DNA from: an uncultured Pelagibacteraceae bacterium
GTDB taxonomy: Bacteria; Pseudomonadota; Alphaproteobacteria; Pelagibacterales; Pelagibacteraceae
Length of the DNA: 64,000 nt
Direction: 5' to 3'
Assembly: GCA_902617895.1 (NCBI GenBank)
Contig: CACMYJ010000004.1
Location: forward strand, 1 to 64,000
The position numbers were made by a program, and so were the translations under genes. The notes beneath the pieces were generated by a model. That model was not told the DNA's origin. It did not search any database and worked only from the letters and a program-made list of their open reading frames with translations. Positions 25,117 to 60,048 of the stretch are shown piece by piece. Position 1 is the first letter of the stretch. Each line of letters starts with the position of its first letter.

Positions 25117-26106
25117 TTATCTGCCTATTTCAGCCATTCTCTCTACTGATTTCCTAGCTCTCTCAATTGTTTCGTGGTCCATTATTAATTCGTTGGTTTC
25201 ATTTTCTAAACAATCAAGTATTTTTGGCAGTGTAATTCTTTTCATGTGAGGACATAAGTTGCAAGGTCTTATAAATTCTACATTAGGATTATCAATTTGA
25301 ACATTATCACTCATCGAGCATTCTGTAACCATCATAACTTTTTTAGGTTGATTATCTCTTACATACTTAATCATTCCACTTGTTGATCCTGCAAAATCAC
25401 TCGCTTTTATTACATCAGGAGGACATTCAGGATGAGCAATAATTTTAATTCCAGGATTATTTTTTCTTATTTCATTAATCTCTTCATCATTAAATTGCTC
25501 GTGAACCTCACAAGTTCCTTTCCATGAAATAATTTCTACATCAGTCTGAGAAGCAACATATTTTGCTAAGTAGTCATCAGGTAAGAAAATTACTTTTTTT
25601 ACACCTAAAGAGTTTACAATTTTAACAGCATTTGCTGATGTACAACAAACGTCAGTTTCAGCCTTAACATCTGCAGAAGTGTTAACATACGAGACAACAG
25701 GCACACCAGGATATTGTTTTTTTAAGTTTCTTACATCTTCACCAGTTATAGACGAGGACAAAGAGCAACCAGCTTTCATATCTGGCAATAAAACTTTTTT
25801 ATTGGGACTCATTAATTTGGCAGTCTCCGCCATAAAATGTACACCACACATAACAATTATATCAGCCTCTGTTTTTGCAGCTTCAATTGCTAAGGCTAAC
25901 GAATCTGCTGAAAAATCTGATATGCCATGATATATTTCAGGAGTTTGGTAATTATGAGCAAGAATTACTGCGTTCTTCTCTTTTTTAAGTTTATTTATTT
26001 TATAAATGTAAGGTGCATGAGTGGCCCACTCTATTTCAGGAATGGATTTAGAAACCTTTTGATAAATAGGATCTGTTGCAATCTTTACCTGAGTTGTGAA
26101 TTCCAT
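25117..26106 (-). CDS. nadA: Quinolinate synthase (start taken at internal MEFTTQ)
   Basis: AVILAHNYQTPEIY, MCGVHFMAETAKLMSPNKKVLLPD, HPECPPDV, PCNLCPHMKRI. Confidence 0.96.
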   Translation of the reverse strand: MEFTTQVKIATDPIYQKVSKSIPEIEWATHAPYIYKINKLKKEKNAVILAHNYQTPEIYHGISDFSADSLALAIEAAKTEADIIVMCGVHFMAETAKLMSPNKKVLLPDMKAGCSLSSSITGEDVRNLKKQYPGVPVVSYVNTSADVKAETDVCCTSANAVKIVNSLGVKKVIFLPDDYLAKYVASQTDVEIISWKGTCEVHEQFNDEEINEIRKNNPGIKIIAHPECPPDVIKASDFAGSTSGMIKYVRDNQPKKVMMVTECSMSDNVQIDNPNVEFIRPCNLCPHMKRITLPKILDCLENETNELIMDHETIERARKSVERMAEIGR

Positions 26107-26165
26107 AATAAAAAACTTATCAACTTGAAATAGAATTGTCATTCATTTAATCTGACGCATGATTT

Positions 26166-26251
26166 GCGGCCATGCTGAAATTGGTAGACAGGCACGGTTG
26201 AGGGCCGTGTGAGCCTAGCTCATGAGAGTTCGATTCTCTCTGGCCGCACCA
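26166..26251 (+). tRNA. tRNA-Leu (anticodon GAG), CCA encoded
   Basis: Acceptor GCGGCCA/TGGCCGC, anticodon stem CACGG-TTGAGGG-CCGTG, long variable arm, T loop TTCGATT. Confidence 0.95.
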
Positions 26252-26275
26252 TAAATTAATATTATATTGAAAAAA

Positions 26276-26304
26276 GGGGCGTTCTGTTGCTAGGTGCCCC
26301 GAAC
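26276..26304 (-). repeat. Displaced copy of the 3' end of the tmRNA coding piece; on the minus strand it is a GGGGC/GCCCC hairpin followed by TTTTTT (terminator-like)
   Basis: GGGGCGTTCTGTTGCTAGGTGCCCCGAAC matches 30832-30860 at 27 of 29 positions in the same orientation. Confidence 0.85.
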
Positions 26305-26320
26305 TGTTTATCTAGATCCA

Positions 26321-26539
26321 CTAATAAACACTCATAAATACTACCATTAATAGAACACCAATCAAGGAACTTGTGACGCCACCATGACGCCAAATATTGG
26401 AAGAGGGGTCCCAGACAAAGTCCAAGATAGATTTAATTAAAGTTACCCACATATCAATAACTACATAAAGGGGTCCCACTGCTTTAGGTGTATAGCAAGT
26501 CGAATAAAGACAGGACAATTGAAAACTTTTTGGTACCAT
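26321..26539 (-). CDS. Hypothetical small protein with a hydrophobic C-terminus (uncertain)
   Basis: 72 aa ORF; no recognised family; could be non-coding. Confidence 0.25.
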   Translation of the reverse strand: MVPKSFQLSCLYSTCYTPKAVGPLYVVIDMWVTLIKSILDFVWDPSSNIWRHGGVTSSLIGVLLMVVFMSVY

Positions 26540-26549
26540 AAATAATTCA

Positions 26550-26753
26550 ATGGCTTGGTATAATATAAATTCTCAGGATAGCGTAACTGCGGAAACTTTA
26601 GAAAAAATCAGAACCGAAAGGTGTGGTTTCTGTGGACAAGAAAAACCAGTCAGAAAGAGAATGAAAATATATTTTTCAGAATTTGAAATAGCAGAAAAAC
26701 CAGTATGTCGAGATTGCTATGTTCAGAACTCTATGAAGGCTATAGCTACTTAA
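26550..26753 (+). CDS. Small zinc-ribbon-like protein
   Basis: 67 aa with CGFCGQ...CRDCY (two CxxC knuckles). Confidence 0.65.
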   Translation: MAWYNINSQDSVTAETLEKIRTERCGFCGQEKPVRKRMKIYFSEFEIAEKPVCRDCYVQNSMKAIAT

Positions 26754-26784
26754 TTTTAAGGGATACAACACTATAAATAGAGGC

Positions 26785-26805
26785 AGACTCATGGTTCAGG
26801 ATTTG
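26785..26805 (+). promoter_or_regulatory. Leader motif copy 1: AGACTC-ATG-GTTCAGGATTTG, 13 nt before the start codon of the next ORF
   Basis: 18 of 21 nt identical to 27928-27948 with the same 13-nt spacing to the start; flanked by the 8-bp inverted repeat CAACACTA/TAGTGTTG (26766-26773 / 26807-26814). Confidence 0.65.
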
Positions 26806-26818
26806 GTAGTGTTGAATT

Positions 26819-27169
26819 GTGAAAAAGCTTTTAATGATCGTGGTTCTGGGTTTGCTAATAAGTGAGAATGTGTATGCAAATGATTTTAATTTTATATGCC
26901 GAGAAGAAATAAAAACTGACAAATTATCAAACGATAGACTTTTTTATGAATTAAAAAAAAAAAAATTTTTTATTGATGGTGTTGAATACTTGTTAAAAGA
27001 AAATCCAAAAATATTAGATAATTCTATAACTTTGACGTGGCGTGATGATGACGGTTGGATTTTTGAATCAATTTTTAACAAAAAAAATGGAAAAATGGTT
27101 GAAAAGGGATTTAACAGTCCAGAAGATAAAAATCCAGTAATTTGGTATTATCAATGCGATATATTTTAA
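26819..27169 (+). CDS. Small exported protein, unknown function (GTG start)
   Basis: Signal peptide MKKLLMIVVLGLLISENVYAND; single Cys near each end of the mature domain. Confidence 0.7.
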   Translation: MKKLLMIVVLGLLISENVYANDFNFICREEIKTDKLSNDRLFYELKKKKFFIDGVEYLLKENPKILDNSITLTWRDDDGWIFESIFNKKNGKMVEKGFNSPEDKNPVIWYYQCDIF

Positions 27170-27179
27170 AAATTTTAAT

Positions 27180-27866
27180 ATGAAAAAACTTCCAGGGATC
27201 TCAAATATTGAAGAAGATGAGAGCAAATTTATAATTTTTTTTGATTGTGGTGATTTAGGAAAAAGAAAAAAAGTAGAAAATTTTGGAGATTATGTAGATT
27301 GTAATCACTTATTTTATAAAAAATTTGATGAATATTGCGACTATTATGGAGTTGGGTATGAACAGTTAGAAGATTTAGCTTTTAGTATGAATTATTCAAT
27401 TCCTGATGCATCACAATTTAACGAATTTTGCAAAAATGGAAAATATGATAAAAATTATCCTTATGATTTCAATTTACATTACTATTTTCCCTTAATTTAT
27501 AGATTTAAATACAAAACTTTAGATGTTGACCCTTTTTTTATTGCACTTGGGAATCAGGACTTAATTTCTGTATATGTTGATTTTCTGAAATCAGTAAAAG
27601 TCATAAATATATGGACTGGTGTGAGCTTGGAAGGTGAATTGGCTGATCAGTTTGAAGAAAATAAAAAACTAAATACCCCAATAGAAAAATATTTACAAAA
27701 CTATTTACATCATGAAGGATTTGTGTACCCACACCTTACATTAAAACAAAATGATATCAGAAATTTAAAAGAATTAAGAAAAAGTTTAAAATCTGATATA
27801 AAAATTGCTTTCCCAGATGCTTCAAAAGAGGAAAAAAATATTTTAAAAAAAGCTAAGTTGATATAA
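27180..27866 (+). CDS. Hypothetical protein
   Basis: 228 aa ORF with plausible codon usage; no recognised domain. Confidence 0.65.
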   Translation: MKKLPGISNIEEDESKFIIFFDCGDLGKRKKVENFGDYVDCNHLFYKKFDEYCDYYGVGYEQLEDLAFSMNYSIPDASQFNEFCKNGKYDKNYPYDFNLHYYFPLIYRFKYKTLDVDPFFIALGNQDLISVYVDFLKSVKVINIWTGVSLEGELADQFEENKKLNTPIEKYLQNYLHHEGFVYPHLTLKQNDIRNLKELRKSLKSDIKIAFPDASKEEKNILKKAKLI

Positions 27867-27927
27867 CAAACTATGCCACAGACTAGGCCATATTTAGATA
27901 AATCAAATAGCCATTTTTAAAGCAAAT

Positions 27928-27948
27928 AGACTCTCTGTTCAGGATTTG
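27928..27948 (+). promoter_or_regulatory. Leader motif copy 2: AGACTC-TCT-GTTCAGGATTTG, 13 nt before the ATG at 27962
   Basis: See copy 1 at 26785-26805. Confidence 0.65.
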
Positions 27949-27961
27949 TTAATCTTGGGTT

Positions 27962-28384
27962 ATGGATAAATCACTATTTGCAAACTTTAAAAATTGGTTT
28001 TTAAAACTTAAAAAATCTAAGAAATATTGGAATTCAGAATGTGATATCCTATTCATGAATGCCGAAAAAGAATTTAAAACATTACTTAAATCTAATGAAA
28101 AAAAAATATACCTAAATATAGATAAAGAAGTTTCTTCAAAAAAACATGATCGAGCCATTATGATGAAAGCAATAAGACTATCAAAAAATAAAAATGCAGA
28201 CTCAAAGTATATTGACCTGAGATTTGAAGAAATGTGGGAAGAGGCTACTGAAAATGAATTTGAGCCTTATATTGGAACTATGATGAGACATATACTAAAT
28301 ATGTCAGATCAATATGAAAGACAAAAGATTAAGCAAAAAGAAGAGGAAACAATCGGTGGAGACTCTCTTTTTGATAAAGATTAG
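27962..28384 (+). CDS. Hypothetical protein
   Basis: 140 aa charged, helical ORF; preceded by leader motif. Confidence 0.65.
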   Translation: MDKSLFANFKNWFLKLKKSKKYWNSECDILFMNAEKEFKTLLKSNEKKIYLNIDKEVSSKKHDRAIMMKAIRLSKNKNADSKYIDLRFEEMWEEATENEFEPYIGTMMRHILNMSDQYERQKIKQKEEETIGGDSLFDKD

Positions 28385-28387
28385 ATA

Positions 28388-29554
28388 ATGAAAATAATTT
28401 TGTTTTTTATTTTTTTAATTTTACCAACGTTTGCCAACAGTTTTGATGATCATTATAAGTTTGATCACTGGGCTTATGAAAGAATTATGTTTGGAAAAAC
28501 TGAAAGTAGTGAAGAAGCAAAAAAACTTTTAGACAGTTATAAACTTAATAATCTTGAGGTAAGAGATACAAATAAACCTTATTTAGGACCTATAATAGAT
28601 GGTCATGCACATCCTAGAAAATCCACCGGAAGAGCTTTAGATATAGGTACTGAGTATTTTATAGAAGATTTGCCAATGTTAACAAATAAGGCAAATGTTT
28701 TTATGTCTGTAATTATGGGAACTCCAAATACTTACAAATCAGAAGATAATTGGAATTATTATTATGATTTTGCTGCAGAGCATCAGAATGTTTTAACTAA
28801 TTGTCATTCCAATTTTATTGGAATGGCAGCAAATAAAAAAAAATATAAGAACTCAGAAGTTAATAAAGAGTTTAAAGAAACTATTAAAAGATTTAAAAAA
28901 GGACAATGTTATGGATTGGGAGAAGCTGGACTGGTTCACTATAATAAAAAGAAAAAAAATCCCCCTTATGGTGGGTATCAACCCCAATTAGATTTAGATC
29001 TTAAAAACCCAATTATTGATAAGGCGTTCAAATTTGTCAATGAACACCGTATGCCGATTAATTTACACCTGGAGCCTTTTCATGAAATAGATGGGATAGA
29101 TAGATTAACAGAGTTTAAAAATTTTTATAAAAAAAAATGTGAAAAATACCCCAACGCAAAAATTGTGATAGCTCATACAGGAATGATGCCAACAAAAGAC
29201 CTTGAAGAAATTTTTGATTATTGTCCTAATACATATACTGACTGGAAAATAGCATTTCATTGGTCTTCTCTTTGGGGCTTTGAGGATTTGCATATCCCAA
29301 ATGATTATAGATTTAAATTACATGAGGTTTGGGCAAAATCGATGGAAAAATATTCCGATAGATATTTTTTTGGTTCTGATCATAAATTAGGTAAAAGCCC
29401 AGCACATGATGTTTTTGTTGAACACTATATGAAGCATGTTCGTTTGATGATTGGATCTTTAAGCCCAGATGTACAAGAAAAGATTGCATATAAAAATGCA
29501 GCTAAACTTTTTAAAATTAATCTTAATCAACCTTTAATTGTTGGCAAACAATAA
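28388..29554 (+). CDS. Exported amidohydrolase-like (TIM-barrel metal-dependent hydrolase) protein
   Basis: Signal peptide MKIILFFIFLILPTFANS; metal-ligand-like motifs IIDGHAHP, NLHLEP, VIAHTGM, FFGSDH. Confidence 0.75.
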   Translation: MKIILFFIFLILPTFANSFDDHYKFDHWAYERIMFGKTESSEEAKKLLDSYKLNNLEVRDTNKPYLGPIIDGHAHPRKSTGRALDIGTEYFIEDLPMLTNKANVFMSVIMGTPNTYKSEDNWNYYYDFAAEHQNVLTNCHSNFIGMAANKKKYKNSEVNKEFKETIKRFKKGQCYGLGEAGLVHYNKKKKNPPYGGYQPQLDLDLKNPIIDKAFKFVNEHRMPINLHLEPFHEIDGIDRLTEFKNFYKKKCEKYPNAKIVIAHTGMMPTKDLEEIFDYCPNTYTDWKIAFHWSSLWGFEDLHIPNDYRFKLHEVWAKSMEKYSDRYFFGSDHKLGKSPAHDVFVEHYMKHVRLMIGSLSPDVQEKIAYKNAAKLFKINLNQPLIVGKQ

Positions 29555-29557
29555 AAA

Positions 29558-29905
29558 ACGAAAAAAATTCTATCGATCCTTGTTCTTAGTTTGTTATTTT
29601 GTGGGAGTGCTTATACTGAAACTTGGACTTGTGATAATTTCAGACATGGAAAAGCTATGTATGAAGTTAAAGATACAGAAATTATATTAAGCTTTACAAA
29701 TAATGATGGCATAACCTTTAAAATAACAAAAGATCAACGACAATACAAAATTAGTGTCTACGGAGAGTTCAGCGATAATCAAAGTGATTTTGATTTTGAT
29801 ATTTATATGGATTATGGAGGCAAGTATGTCATTAATAGAACCCAAGATGCTTTGTCTGGATATTCAAAATCATATACAGATAAGAATTGTGTAATATTTC
29901 ATTAA
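29558..29905 (+). CDS. Small exported protein, unknown function; apparent ACG start (ORF track starts at 29591)
   Basis: In-frame extension from ACG 29558 reads (M)KKILSILVLSLLFCGSAYTETWTC..., a complete signal peptide. Confidence 0.55.
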   Translation, partial: TKKILSILVLSLLFCGSAYTETWTCDNFRHGKAMYEVKDTEIILSFTNNDGITFKITKDQRQYKISVYGEFSDNQSDFDFDIYMDYGGKYVINRTQDALSGYSKSYTDKNCVIFH

Positions 29906-29923
29906 TATGAAAAAACTTCTTAG

Positions 29924-30091
29924 ATGATGGATCAACTAATACCTGTAGTATATATGATAGGAGTTCTATTGTTGGTTCTACCTGCTTTTTTACAGTCTAA
30001 TTCTAAATTAAAACAATTGTTAACTAATTTTACTATTTGGATTATCATAGTGCTTATAATTTTAACTTTTATTTATTTATTTAAGAATTAA
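29924..30091 (+). CDS. Small membrane protein (55 aa)
   Basis: MMDQLIPVVYMIGVLLLVLPAFLQSNSKLKQLLTNFTIWIIIVLIILTFIYLFKN; stop overlaps the next start (TAATG); below the ORF-track length cutoff. Confidence 0.5.
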   Translation: MMDQLIPVVYMIGVLLLVLPAFLQSNSKLKQLLTNFTIWIIIVLIILTFIYLFKN

Positions 30092-30273
30092 TGAAAAAGA
30101 AACTACGACATAATCCAATGTGGTTGGGTGGGATTGCCGTGATTATTTTTTCAATGTTATTGCCTATAATTTTAGCACTTACATATGACATTGAGTTACC
30201 TGGATGGTTTACACCTGCTGGTGTTTTTATAGGTGCATTTTTAATGATAAATCACGATGGTATTAATCATTAA
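30091..30273 (+). CDS. Small membrane protein (60 aa)
   Basis: Hydrophobic segment IAVIIFSMLLPIILALTYDI; translationally coupled start. Confidence 0.5.
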   Translation: MKKKLRHNPMWLGGIAVIIFSMLLPIILALTYDIELPGWFTPAGVFIGAFLMINHDGINH

Positions 30274-30317
30274 ATCTTGATTAGAACAAAATTAAGACCC
30301 AAAAAAAACAATCAATA

Positions 30318-30701
30318 GTGCCAATATTAATAATGCGTTTATTAATACCTTTCTTATTAATGTGCTCGACCTCATTTGCTGATCAAGGTTTAAGAATTTC
30401 CTGTCTTAATATGTTAACTGCTATTGGTGAAAAACATGAGCCTGAAAATTATAGTTTAGACTCATCTGAACTTAAGTTTTTTGATAAAAAAAATAACGTA
30501 TTAAAAAAGATTAAAACTGAGGATTTAGAAATAGGAAACAATTATTTCACTGCAAAATTAACAAATTATCAACTCACTTTTGAAAACATGTTATTTAAGG
30601 ACGAGCAAAAAGAGAGAATGGTTTTATCTAAATATGATTATAAAAATCAAAAGTACTCAGATCTTTATTTTTGTGATTATTCGTTTGCAGATATAAAATA
30701 A
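30318..30701 (+). CDS. Small exported protein, unknown function
   Basis: Signal peptide MRLLIPFLLMCSTSFAD then a ~105 aa domain with terminal cysteines (RISC...YFCDYS). Confidence 0.6.
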   Translation: MPILIMRLLIPFLLMCSTSFADQGLRISCLNMLTAIGEKHEPENYSLDSSELKFFDKKNNVLKKIKTEDLEIGNNYFTAKLTNYQLTFENMLFKDEQKERMVLSKYDYKNQKYSDLYFCDYSFADIK

Positions 30702-30743
30702 ATATTCAGTCGTCCTATAGTCGTCCAAACGACTTGGTTGATT

Positions 30744-30807
30744 AAATAAACACTTTTTCCTTTCTTGTGACGCCACCCTGTATTTATTTTCTAAAAAGTG
30801 TTTATTT
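30744..30807. repeat. 15-bp perfect inverted repeat AAATAAACACTTTTT / AAAAAGTGTTTATTT with a 34-nt loop
   Basis: Read directly (30744-30758 and 30793-30807); the loop contains one copy of CTTGTGACGCCACC. Confidence 0.9.
30764..30777 (+). repeat. CTTGTGACGCCACC, 14-bp perfect direct repeat with 26370-26383
   Basis: Identical string at both ends of the island. Confidence 0.9.
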
Positions 30808-30831
30808 TTCTAGCGAACCGAGAATCAGGAA

Positions 30832-31080
30832 GGGGCGTTCTGTTGCCAGGTGCCCCAAACCCCGTGACTTAATTAGTAAACTAATTAAGCTGCAAGTGCG
30901 TAACTTTCGTTAGCATTTATAAATTAGCCCATCACGGCGGAACAATACCGAACGAAAGAACAACTTTTAGACACTCGTCGATCCTAATTCACCCCCTTAA
31001 GTTGTAAATGGTGGAGGTGGTGGGTACTGCCCCCACGTCCGTAATGGTTATTACGAAATTCGTTTATCGTCATAGTTGGA
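30832..31080 (-). ncRNA. ssrA: Transfer-messenger RNA, circularly permuted two-piece alphaproteobacterial form (acceptor piece ~31080-31009, spacer 31008-30997, coding piece 30996-30832)
   Basis: Minus strand encodes tag ANESYALAA* (30914-30885); acceptor strand CACCTCC-A-CCA pairs with GGGGGTG, including the G3-U70-type wobble expected for alanine identity; permuted order. Confidence 0.92.
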
Positions 31081-31132
31081 AAACCAACACTATTAATATA
31101 AAACCAAATACGAGAGATTCAATAATTTATTC

Positions 31133-32080
31133 ATGAAACTTACAAAAGAACAAATAAATGACATAAAAGATCAACAATCTCAAGAGAATGTAACTAAAAG
31201 AGTTATCGCTCCTGAATTAGAAAAAGTATTATATGAAGCGATGCCAGCTTTAGATCACGGCTTTATAAGAGTTATTGACTACATGGGAGATGATAGCTCA
31301 ATAGTTCAGTCTGCAAGAGTTTCTTATGGTAAAGGAACTAAAAAAGTTTCAACAGATAGCGGTTTAATAAAATATCTAATGCGTCATTGGCATAGCACTC
31401 CATTCGAAATGTGTGAAATTAAATATCATGTTAAATTACCAATATTTATCGCAAGACAATGGATTAGACATCGTACTGCAAACGTCAACGAATACTCAGC
31501 AAGATACTCAATTTTAGATAAAGAATTTTATTTACCTGATCCACAAAATTTAGCAGCTCAATCAATTGCAAACAGACAAGGTAGAGGTGATGTGATTGAG
31601 GGAGAGCAAGCAAAGGAAGTTTTAGAACTATTAAAAAATGATGCTGAAAGAACATATGATAATTATGAAACTATGCTTAATCAGAAATTTGATGGGTCCA
31701 CAATTGACGAAAATAAAAAAGGATTAGCTAGAGAGTTAGCTAGAATGAACCTAACTTTGAATACTTATACTCAGTGGTATTGGAAAACTGATCTTTTAAA
31801 CTTAATGAATTTTTTAAGATTACGTGCTGACCATCATGCTCAATATGAAATTAGAGTTTATGCGGATATAATGTTAGATACACTTAAGAGATGGGTTCCT
31901 ATTACATACGATGCATTCATGGATTATAGAGTAGGTGGTACAGAGGTCTCTACTAAAGGAAAAGCAATAATACAAAAATTATTGAAAGGTGAGGACATAA
32001 ATTTAGAACAATCTGGACTTTCAAAAAGAGAATGGAATGAACTTATGGAAGCTTTTGAAATTACAGATAAGATTGTTTGA
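31133..32080 (+). CDS. thyX: Flavin-dependent thymidylate synthase
   Basis: [19 protein letters not shown] (RHRxxSxxxxS-like ThyX motif). Confidence 0.95.
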
Positions 32081-59313: not shown

Positions 59314-59381
59314 AGATTTTTCAGCAAAACTCTAAATAAATTTTAATGCAAATTTTAATGCCTATGATATTATCACTTTTA

Positions 59382-59431
59382 GATAGTCCTATCTAGCCAT
59401 CTTTAGCTCCCGGTTTTTTAGGACTATCCTA
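59382..59431. promoter_or_regulatory. Inverted operator or RNA element upstream of the LysE-family gene: GATAGTCCTA (59382-59391) ... TAGGACTATC (59419-59428)
   Basis: 10-bp perfect arms, 27-nt loop; each arm is itself near-palindromic (AGATAG-TC-CTATCT; TAGGA-CTA-TCCTA). Confidence 0.65.
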
Positions 59432-59433
59432 AA

Positions 59434-60048
59434 ATGCTCCCATTAAACTATTTCCTTTTTCTACAAATTATTCTCTTTATGTTTATTACTCCTGGAACAC
59501 CAAGGATTGTAATCATTTCATATTCAATGAATTATGGAGTAAAGAAATGTGTATGGACAGCATTAGGAGATGTTACTGCAAATATTATTCAAGCAACTCT
59601 TGTTATATTTGTTATTGGCTCATTTATTTCTGATAACCCTAAGTTGCTTAATACAATTAAGTGGATAGGAATAATTTATATTCTATATCTTGCTTATGAT
59701 ATTTATAAATCTCGACCAAAAAGTATAAACTCTGATAAAAAATCAGAAAAAACTTTTTTATCTTTTTATAAAGATGGTTTTTTAGTTGCTGGAACAAGCC
59801 CTAAAGCTTGGATGTTTTTTCCTTTTATTTTTCCACAATTTATTGATTTCAACTCTAATTATGTTGCTCAATTCATTATTTTAATAACTACATATGTAAT
59901 TTTAGATTTTTTATCTTTAATCGGTTACGCCATTCTAGCAAATAAAATGATTACCTGGGTTAAAGCTAATGCAAAGATTATAAACACAATTTCTGCGTGC
60001 GTTTTAATTGTAATTGCAGCAATAATTGCATTTATGCAACAATATTAG
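59434..60048 (+). CDS. LysE family amino acid exporter
   Basis: TPGTPRIVIISYSMNYGVKKCVWTALGDVTANI, SPKAWMFF, six-TM pattern. Confidence 0.88.
   Translation: MLPLNYFLFLQIILFMFITPGTPRIVIISYSMNYGVKKCVWTALGDVTANIIQATLVIFVIGSFISDNPKLLNTIKWIGIIYILYLAYDIYKSRPKSINSDKKSEKTFLSFYKDGFLVAGTSPKAWMFFPFIFPQFIDFNSNYVAQFIILITTYVILDFLSLIGYAILANKMITWVKANAKIINTISACVLIVIAAIIAFMQQY

Follow-up and report, generated by a model that had tools for sequence, protein, structure and literature searches.

We analysed a 64,000-nt stretch of DNA (hereafter the window; positions 1 to 64,000 of contig CACMYJ010000004.1) from an uncultured Pelagibacteraceae bacterium of the SAR11 group, whose genome assembly comprises 1.17 Mb in 22 contigs. 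An island is inserted at the 3' end of ssrA, the gene for transfer-messenger RNA (tmRNA). It belongs to a large family of small mobile cassettes that lack an integrase and seem not to have been described before, and we consider it probable that the members of this family, the window island included, are integrative elements that act in cis and are mobilised in trans by integrases of the lambda type. The coordinates of all features are collected in Table 1, and loci in other genomes and contigs are cited by our own numbers (L).

ARAGORN places the ssrA gene at 30794-31104, and Rfam recovers it over its full model (Table 1). Since ssrA has the circularly permuted form, what is duplicated is its 3'-terminal hairpin and not a tRNA-like acceptor end. 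The direct repeat spans 31 nt (26274-26304 and 30830-30860) with 94% identity and the same orientation of both copies. The 25-nt hairpin within it, here called the core, has 1 mismatch between the copies; 0.00 matches at ≤3 mismatches are expected from dinucleotide shuffles. Using ssrA as query against the whole own genome we retrieved two places only, the displaced copy with E = 1.3e-6. The distance from core to core is 4,556 bp. The T run GCCCCTTTTTT, which together with the hairpin resembles a terminator, is present at the displaced copy only, and the ssrA-attached copy is followed by TTCCTGATTC. The original prediction, made from the sequence alone, had described an intact minus-strand tmRNA gene, a displaced copy of its 3' end in the same orientation, the T run at that copy and unrelated sequence after the other. 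Rfam, ARAGORN and the repeat comparison agree with it in coordinates and orientation, and the T run lies where it had been described.

The neighbourhood of ssrA was taken from 60 genomes of the genus of the window. The context nadC-nadA-tRNA-Leu was found in 28 loci (window included), 16 of them empty and 12 filled; the count of empty loci, and those of the arrays below, are minimum figures, many genomes being incomplete single-cell or metagenome assemblies. In empty loci ssrA directly adjoins tRNA-Leu, and filled loci hold 1-6 kb with differing genes. Both flanks of the empty loci L057, L059 and L063 are 96-97% identical to the window, and the island DNA is absent: L063 showed only a 38-nt chance-level match to the island, L057 and L059 none. 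The empty site of all three consists of a single core, followed by a T run of the type seen at the displaced copy of the window, beside tRNA-Leu. Because these relatives hold a single core with the T run and no island DNA, the arrangement in the window is an insertion. From this layout it also follows that the core linked to ssrA arrived with the element and that the distal core is the original ssrA end. Thus, as for Islander-type islands, the target gene is restored by the island, a fragment of it is displaced to the far end, and relatives have the uninterrupted site. The island at the ssrA end is confirmed by these results: the tRNA-Leu to thyX interval of relatives has the single ssrA end that had been predicted, other cargo occupies the same site, and the contrary case of the same genes and both copies in all relatives does not apply with 16 of the 28 loci empty. 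The T run after the ssrA hairpin was removed by the insertion (window 30832 compared with the empty relatives), and filled strains may therefore be without an intrinsic terminator for tmRNA.

When GTDB contigs were scanned for the core in its displaced form, 96 stretches were found, of which 80 were listed. All 80 were from Pelagibacteraceae/Pelagibacterales, mostly single-cell genomes, and they contained 152 core copies, namely 41 ssrA ends and 111 displaced cores. A few conserved left ends recur ahead of the displaced cores, and matching right ends come after the first cores. The 13-nt core part AACAGAACGCCCC was detected in 330 of 399 genomes of the genus, with several copies in some, and in 13 of the 14 genera of the family; its reversed control was essentially absent among the matches listed. 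We extracted 168 core-to-core units. They form tandem arrays on the same strand with short spacing (e.g., L215, L244), each cassette consisting of one to few small genes on either strand, and the shortest units have 0.4 kb. Apart from ssrA, units occupy the rnhA 3' end and the ends of further genes. Variant cores at secondary targets diverge to the left of GGCAACAG and to the right of GAAC, so that the strand exchange falls within about GGCAACAGAAC.

The second target, the rnhA 3' end, was seen in L209-L212, L249 and L279-L304; many rnhA ends retain a solo variant hairpin (e.g., GTACACCTGGCAACAGAACTGCCC), others have none. Further cores follow the stop codon of a 68-aa secreted-looking protein (L182, L213, L247) and the stop codons of proteins ending in VKLSMKQAAE (L133) or NDKDWPDMNL (L109, L168). 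The ssrA elements in L043 and L051 harbor genes resembling type I restriction-modification genes (sequences read, no profile search), and a GIY-YIG-like endonuclease gene lies directly after ssrA in L084. Short weak matches to alpha_tmRNA across the genus were considered as second tmRNA genes and rejected; where checked, they were displaced hairpins.

Whole core-delimited units have moved between genomes, as seen in an all-against-all comparison of the units. A unit at ssrA (L070) was 99.8% identical over 625 bp to a unit at another locus in a genome of a sister genus (L127/L253), and the same identity over 1,026 bp was found for L154 and L247, which occupy different sites. L102 and L131 shared 97.7% over 682 bp, while their thyX genes were only 82% identical. 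A two-gene cassette of 1.6-1.7 kb was present at differing array positions in L245, L251, L253, L256 and L073. Identical units occurred at loci without similarity of the flanks, and their ends fell exactly at the cores. The amidohydrolase block of the window island (28381-29571) was 99.7% and 99.2% identical at the nucleotide level to non-ssrA loci of two other genomes (L242, L243); the ssrA site of one of them is empty. Island DNA has therefore moved recently; this exchange had its breakpoints within the island instead of at the cores.

We also compared the regions inside each end of the 168 units. The score for motifs shared between right and left end was 1165 for own units compared with 382 ± 41 for permuted ones (z about 19), and a shared motif of at least 10 nt was present in 54 of the 168 own pairs compared with 2.4% of cross pairs. 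Tandem repeats with a period of 11 bp were found in 62 and 67 of 135 ends, but only in 4.5 of 135 interior control windows. Their distance from the core is 40-60 nt at the right end and 70-90 nt at the left end, inward in both cases. The repeated word varies by element (TGGCACA, TGTCCGCA, TGTACGGGAT, ACATTGAAGTT, CACGAAGTTT, TCGGAAT, ACTCGTCC and others), giving about ten arm types on one core. Repeats of 11 bp at fixed distances are the layout of the arm-type sites of lambda-type integrases. The arm motif of the window is TGGCGTCA. About 80-92 nt inside the displaced core GGTGGCGTCACAAG sits in a tandem pair with 11-bp period, the first TGACGCC copy (26374) being part of the 14-mer shared with the other end. 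By sequence, the units, with the one in the window among them, thus have the anatomy of a lambda-type attachment site (attP), a core with arm-type direct repeats at both ends. The additional AGTCGTCC pair without a partner at the left end possibly stems from another element type. As an outside check the TGGCACA pair was sought in unrelated viral contigs, and in 5 of 17 it lay no more than about 0.3 kb from an open reading frame (ORF) for a tyrosine integrase.

No match to PF00589 was found near ssrA in 151 genomes, and Pfam, PHROGs and PADLOC revealed no integrase-like protein in the window island. A profile built from 11 integrases of the genus, which recovered the positive control, detected no integrase in about 170 core loci. 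As the integrase of an Islander-type island is lacking, the island was filed as integrase-less, in accordance with the original prediction that none was visible. Phage attP sites as a source were rejected after IMG/VR was queried with the exact core, the displaced form, the right end and the arm patterns: the matches were complete tmRNA genes of viral contigs, a tRNA-rich contig (L096) or a chance match in a structural phage gene (L265), or there was none. The complete two-piece tmRNA genes on viral contigs L093-L095 and L097-L101 have the 25-nt hairpin of SAR11 hosts. A 34-nt query of INPHARED returned unrelated Gordonia phages only. Prophage-type integrases of the genus were rejected as helpers; several lie near tRNA genes, with arm motifs only as scattered single copies.

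In our proposal the island inserted when its own attP underwent conservative site-specific recombination with the 3'-end hairpin of ssrA. The ssrA hairpin was thereby rebuilt, so that tmRNA would survive, and the original end with its T run was displaced by 4.5 kb. Cassettes pile up in tandem at ssrA and also occupy secondary sites, the rnhA 3' end among them. Each cassette would keep the cis half of a lambda-type system, namely the common core plus arm-type sites of its own at either end. Excision and insertion would be carried out by a heterobivalent tyrosine integrase that a phage or another helper provides in trans and whose N-terminal domain reads the arm motif. The data show that the island inserted by recombination within the core, that cores bound the units and whole units move between genomes, that the arms match within units and that integrases are absent; the class of enzyme, the helper and the vehicle between cells are inferred. 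The predicted junction of the circle (left end, core, right end) is ...GATAAACAGTTC-GGGGCACCT(A/G)GCAACAGAACGCCCC-TTCCTGATTCTC..., and transfer between cells presumably occurs via phage or DNA uptake.

Several results weigh against this proposal. The core and arm patterns gave no attP of a SAR11 phage in IMG/VR. The search for integrases elsewhere that recognise the ssrA repeat, suggested by the original prediction, did not retrieve a helper with matching core or arms from IMG/VR, INPHARED or the prophage-type loci of the genus, and the integrase loci of the genus had no tandem copies of the cassette arm motifs. Excision or circular forms were not observed. About half of the elements have no detectable tandem arm pair, which may reflect decay, other arm types or wrong pairing of cores, and the right end in the window has one matching arm copy instead of two. 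A more far-reaching version, which we put forward tentatively and at somewhat less than even chance, is a decentralised SAR11 cassette system, in which hundreds of cassettes would share one universal core and differ in arm "addresses" read only by matching integrases. With equal reserve, these integrases may come from passing phages or helpers, and the ssrA and rnhA 3' ends may serve as docking arrays shared across genera without resident machinery.

The original prediction offered two alternatives, a remnant or an element mobilised in trans. Across the family the second is favoured, because no integrase was found in about 170 loci, yet the architecture of the ends is preserved and units are near-identical between genomes. 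As a dead remnant, the island would descend from an integrase-bearing ssrA element from which the integrase was deleted after insertion and would now be immobile and vertically inherited. An island without integrase and a displaced core with one mismatch are in line with this, and such a loss is plausible, since 15 of 31 ssrA islands of Dehalococcoides are without an integration module and 16 keep one (PMC3146451). However, none of the 168 core-to-core units contains an integrase while their ends are preserved, and near-identical units at different sites and in different genera show that integrase-less forms moved. We therefore regard a dead remnant as rather unlikely.

A conserved tyrosine recombinase of Pelagibacteraceae might mobilise the cassettes in the way XerCD acts on integrative mobile elements exploiting Xer (IMEX) or IntI on integron cassettes. 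The only tyrosine recombinase found in the genome of the window has 317 aa and is present in a single copy. In the family it has about 301-318 aa; almost every high-quality genome holds a single copy, and it occurs in 13 of 14 genera, a range equal to that of the arrays. It scored 72 bits against the XerD cut-off of 330, and by the NCBIfam cut-offs it is neither XerC nor XerD. Its gene borders variable genes resembling surface-polysaccharide genes; an integrase gene is known in the SAR11 hypervariable region HVR2 (PMC2217521). A palindromic site, ACTAATGATAATTAATTGTTATCAATAGTAAT, precedes the start of the recombinase, which has the variable genes on its other side (L198, L218-L237), and speaks for such a role, but it is unlike the core, and no core was found in the surrounding loci. 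Only about 20 residues lie ahead of the core-binding domain. This leaves no space for an arm-binding domain, although the arms vary by element, and makes the protein a poorer candidate than an external helper; we assign it a small probability. In another family of the order, two weaker matches per genome are the rule.

Homologous recombination could have swapped islands via conserved flanks (thyX, nadA, shared cassettes), the duplicated core being an old relic. Exchange at structural-RNA genes has been proposed for variable regions of SAR11 (PMC2217521), and the amidohydrolase gene did move alone: three genomes hold the single-gene block, each at a different locus, and its breakpoints coincide with the start codon and with the signal-peptide start of the next gene (ATGAAAAAAATTCT compared with ACGAAAAAAATTCT in the window), inside similar signal-peptide starts. 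The identical units without flank similarity and with ends exactly at the cores disfavour this as the main route, which we consider very unlikely. That the second hairpin is just a terminator put to another use, or an old duplication passed on vertically, without any insertion, as its terminator-like hairpin and T run might suggest, is refuted by empty sites with a single copy and the exact T-run flank of the displaced copy.

Among the island proteins, searches against Pfam, PHROGs and PADLOC identified only the amidohydrolase, plus matches below threshold, and membership in this family is the sole, putative, assignment of function reached for the cargo. A Pfam Resolvase match in the 140-aa protein was dismissed as weak (E 0.025, under the cut-off). 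The ORF after the amidohydrolase gene (29555-29905) reads through an in-frame upstream signal peptide; at the position of the ATG in the homologous junction it carries ACG, and it may thus have lost its start. A repeated leader of 42-70 nt (..AGACTC..GTTCAGGATTTG..) directly precedes genes at 26785-26826 and 27928-27969 of the window, and also the amidohydrolase gene of another genome (L242, 1307-1376). The 42-nt repeat inside the island was considered as integron attC, which was not supported. Elsewhere in the window, at 59364-59439, Rfam matched the small RNA rhtB with 76.3 bits.

Table 1. Features of the ssrA island and its flanks in the window.
Feature	Position	Strand	Remarks
nadA, distal conserved flank	25117..26142	-	named from sequence and conserved neighbourhood, no profile search
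tRNA-Leu(gag), distal flank	26166..26251	+	directly beside ssrA in empty genomes
Displaced core (attR)	26276..26300	-	24/25; then original T run and tRNA-Leu flank
Inserted element (cargo)	26301..30831	.	absent in empty-site relatives
Left-end arm-type sites	26370..26391	+	TGACGCC at 26374 and 26385 (11-bp period); about 70-92 nt inside displaced core
67-aa Cys-rich (zinc-ribbon-like) protein	26550..26753	+	
116-aa protein	26819..27169	+	N-terminus resembles signal peptide
228-aa protein	27180..27866	+	
140-aa protein	27962..28384	+	homologue within core-bounded cassette of sister genus (L244)
Amidohydrolase-2 family protein	28388..29554	+	likely exported; PF04909, E 2.3e-9
104-aa ORF	29591..29905	+	
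Two small membrane-like proteins	29924..30273	+	55 and 60 aa
127-aa protein	30318..30701	+	signal-peptide-like N-terminus; homologue near core of type-B element L194
Second arm-like pair, AGTCGTCC x2	30708..30726	+	11-bp period; no left-end partner
Right-end arm-type site CTTGTGACGCCACC (minus strand GGTGGCGTCACAAG)	30764..30777	+	14-mer common to both element ends; 54-55 nt inside core
ssrA, circularly permuted (two-piece) tmRNA	30828..31126	-	intact; tag ANESYALAA; Rfam alpha_tmRNA RF01849, model 1-355 (full), 228.9 bits
Core attached to ssrA (attL)	30832..30856	-	GGGGCACCTGGCAACAGAACGCCCC on minus strand; last 25 nt of 3' hairpin
thyX, proximal conserved flank	31133..32080	+	conserved neighbourhood

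SAR11 bacteria rank with the most abundant ocean cells and count as streamlined, and the route by which they gain accessory genes is largely open. Integron attC sites were sought earlier in SAR11 variable regions and none were found (PMC2217521). Precisely bounded, family-wide cassettes with element-specific arms offer a concrete and testable route of gene gain and raise the sharp question of which integrase reads which arms; core and arms can also serve as markers to track gene flow in metagenomes. We found no description of these SAR11 cassettes in the literature covered, which left out preprints and most subscription journals.

Several known systems share features with the cassettes. Tycheposons, known from Prochlorococcus and reported in Methylophilaceae (PMC10872708), are likewise cargo islands at structural RNA genes of streamlined ocean bacteria, but by description they have a tyrosine recombinase, tRNA genes as targets and sizes of 4-200 kb; the window island has neither such a recombinase nor a tRNA target. 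It also gave no PHROGs or PADLOC matches to integrase, replication or packaging-interference genes that would indicate a phage satellite such as a phage-inducible chromosomal island (PICI) or its minimalist form (PICMI). The cassettes share with the attP of lambda-type phages the core and the arm-type direct repeats at fixed distances, including TGGCACA arms beside phage integrases, but lack integrase, excisionase and structural phage genes.

The closest described case is the ssrA islands of Dehalococcoides, which are also tandem islands downstream of ssrA in a streamlined host, bounded by 3'-end repeats and carrying diverse cargo (PMC3146451). They include integrase-bearing members with CcrB-like serine recombinases and have a 20-bp repeat (PMC3146451), whereas the SAR11 family has no integrase in any member, lambda-type arm repeats, a permuted ssrA, 0.4-kb units and rnhA as a target. 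For the Dehalococcoides islands without integration module (15 of 31), McMurdie et al. (2011) suggested cis-mobilizable elements (CIMEs; PMC3146451), a concept that goes back to ICESt1-type elements (Pavlovic et al. 2004, as cited in PMC3146451). Like CIMEs, the SAR11 cassettes keep attL and attR without genes for recombination or transfer and accrete in tandem. Known CIMEs, however, derive from and adjoin integrative and conjugative (ICE) or integrative and mobilizable elements (IME), whereas no integrase-bearing relative, and thus no parent, was found in about 170 core loci of the SAR11 cassettes, which are family-wide, have about ten arm types and accrete only with other integrase-less units. 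With integron cassettes they share small genes between repeated recombination sites, the arrays and the reshuffling between positions. They differ in having genes on both strands, a core and arms with duplex attP anatomy, and ssrA or rnhA instead of attI as anchor. Core and end sequences, read by eye, do not follow the attC layout RYYYAAC...GTTRRRY, and the resident recombinase scored 27.6 bits against the IntI cut-off of 265 (TIGR02249), and no IntI lies near the arrays. The SAR11 cassettes do not appear to be an integron; they resemble CIMEs in their working and integron cassettes as arrays.

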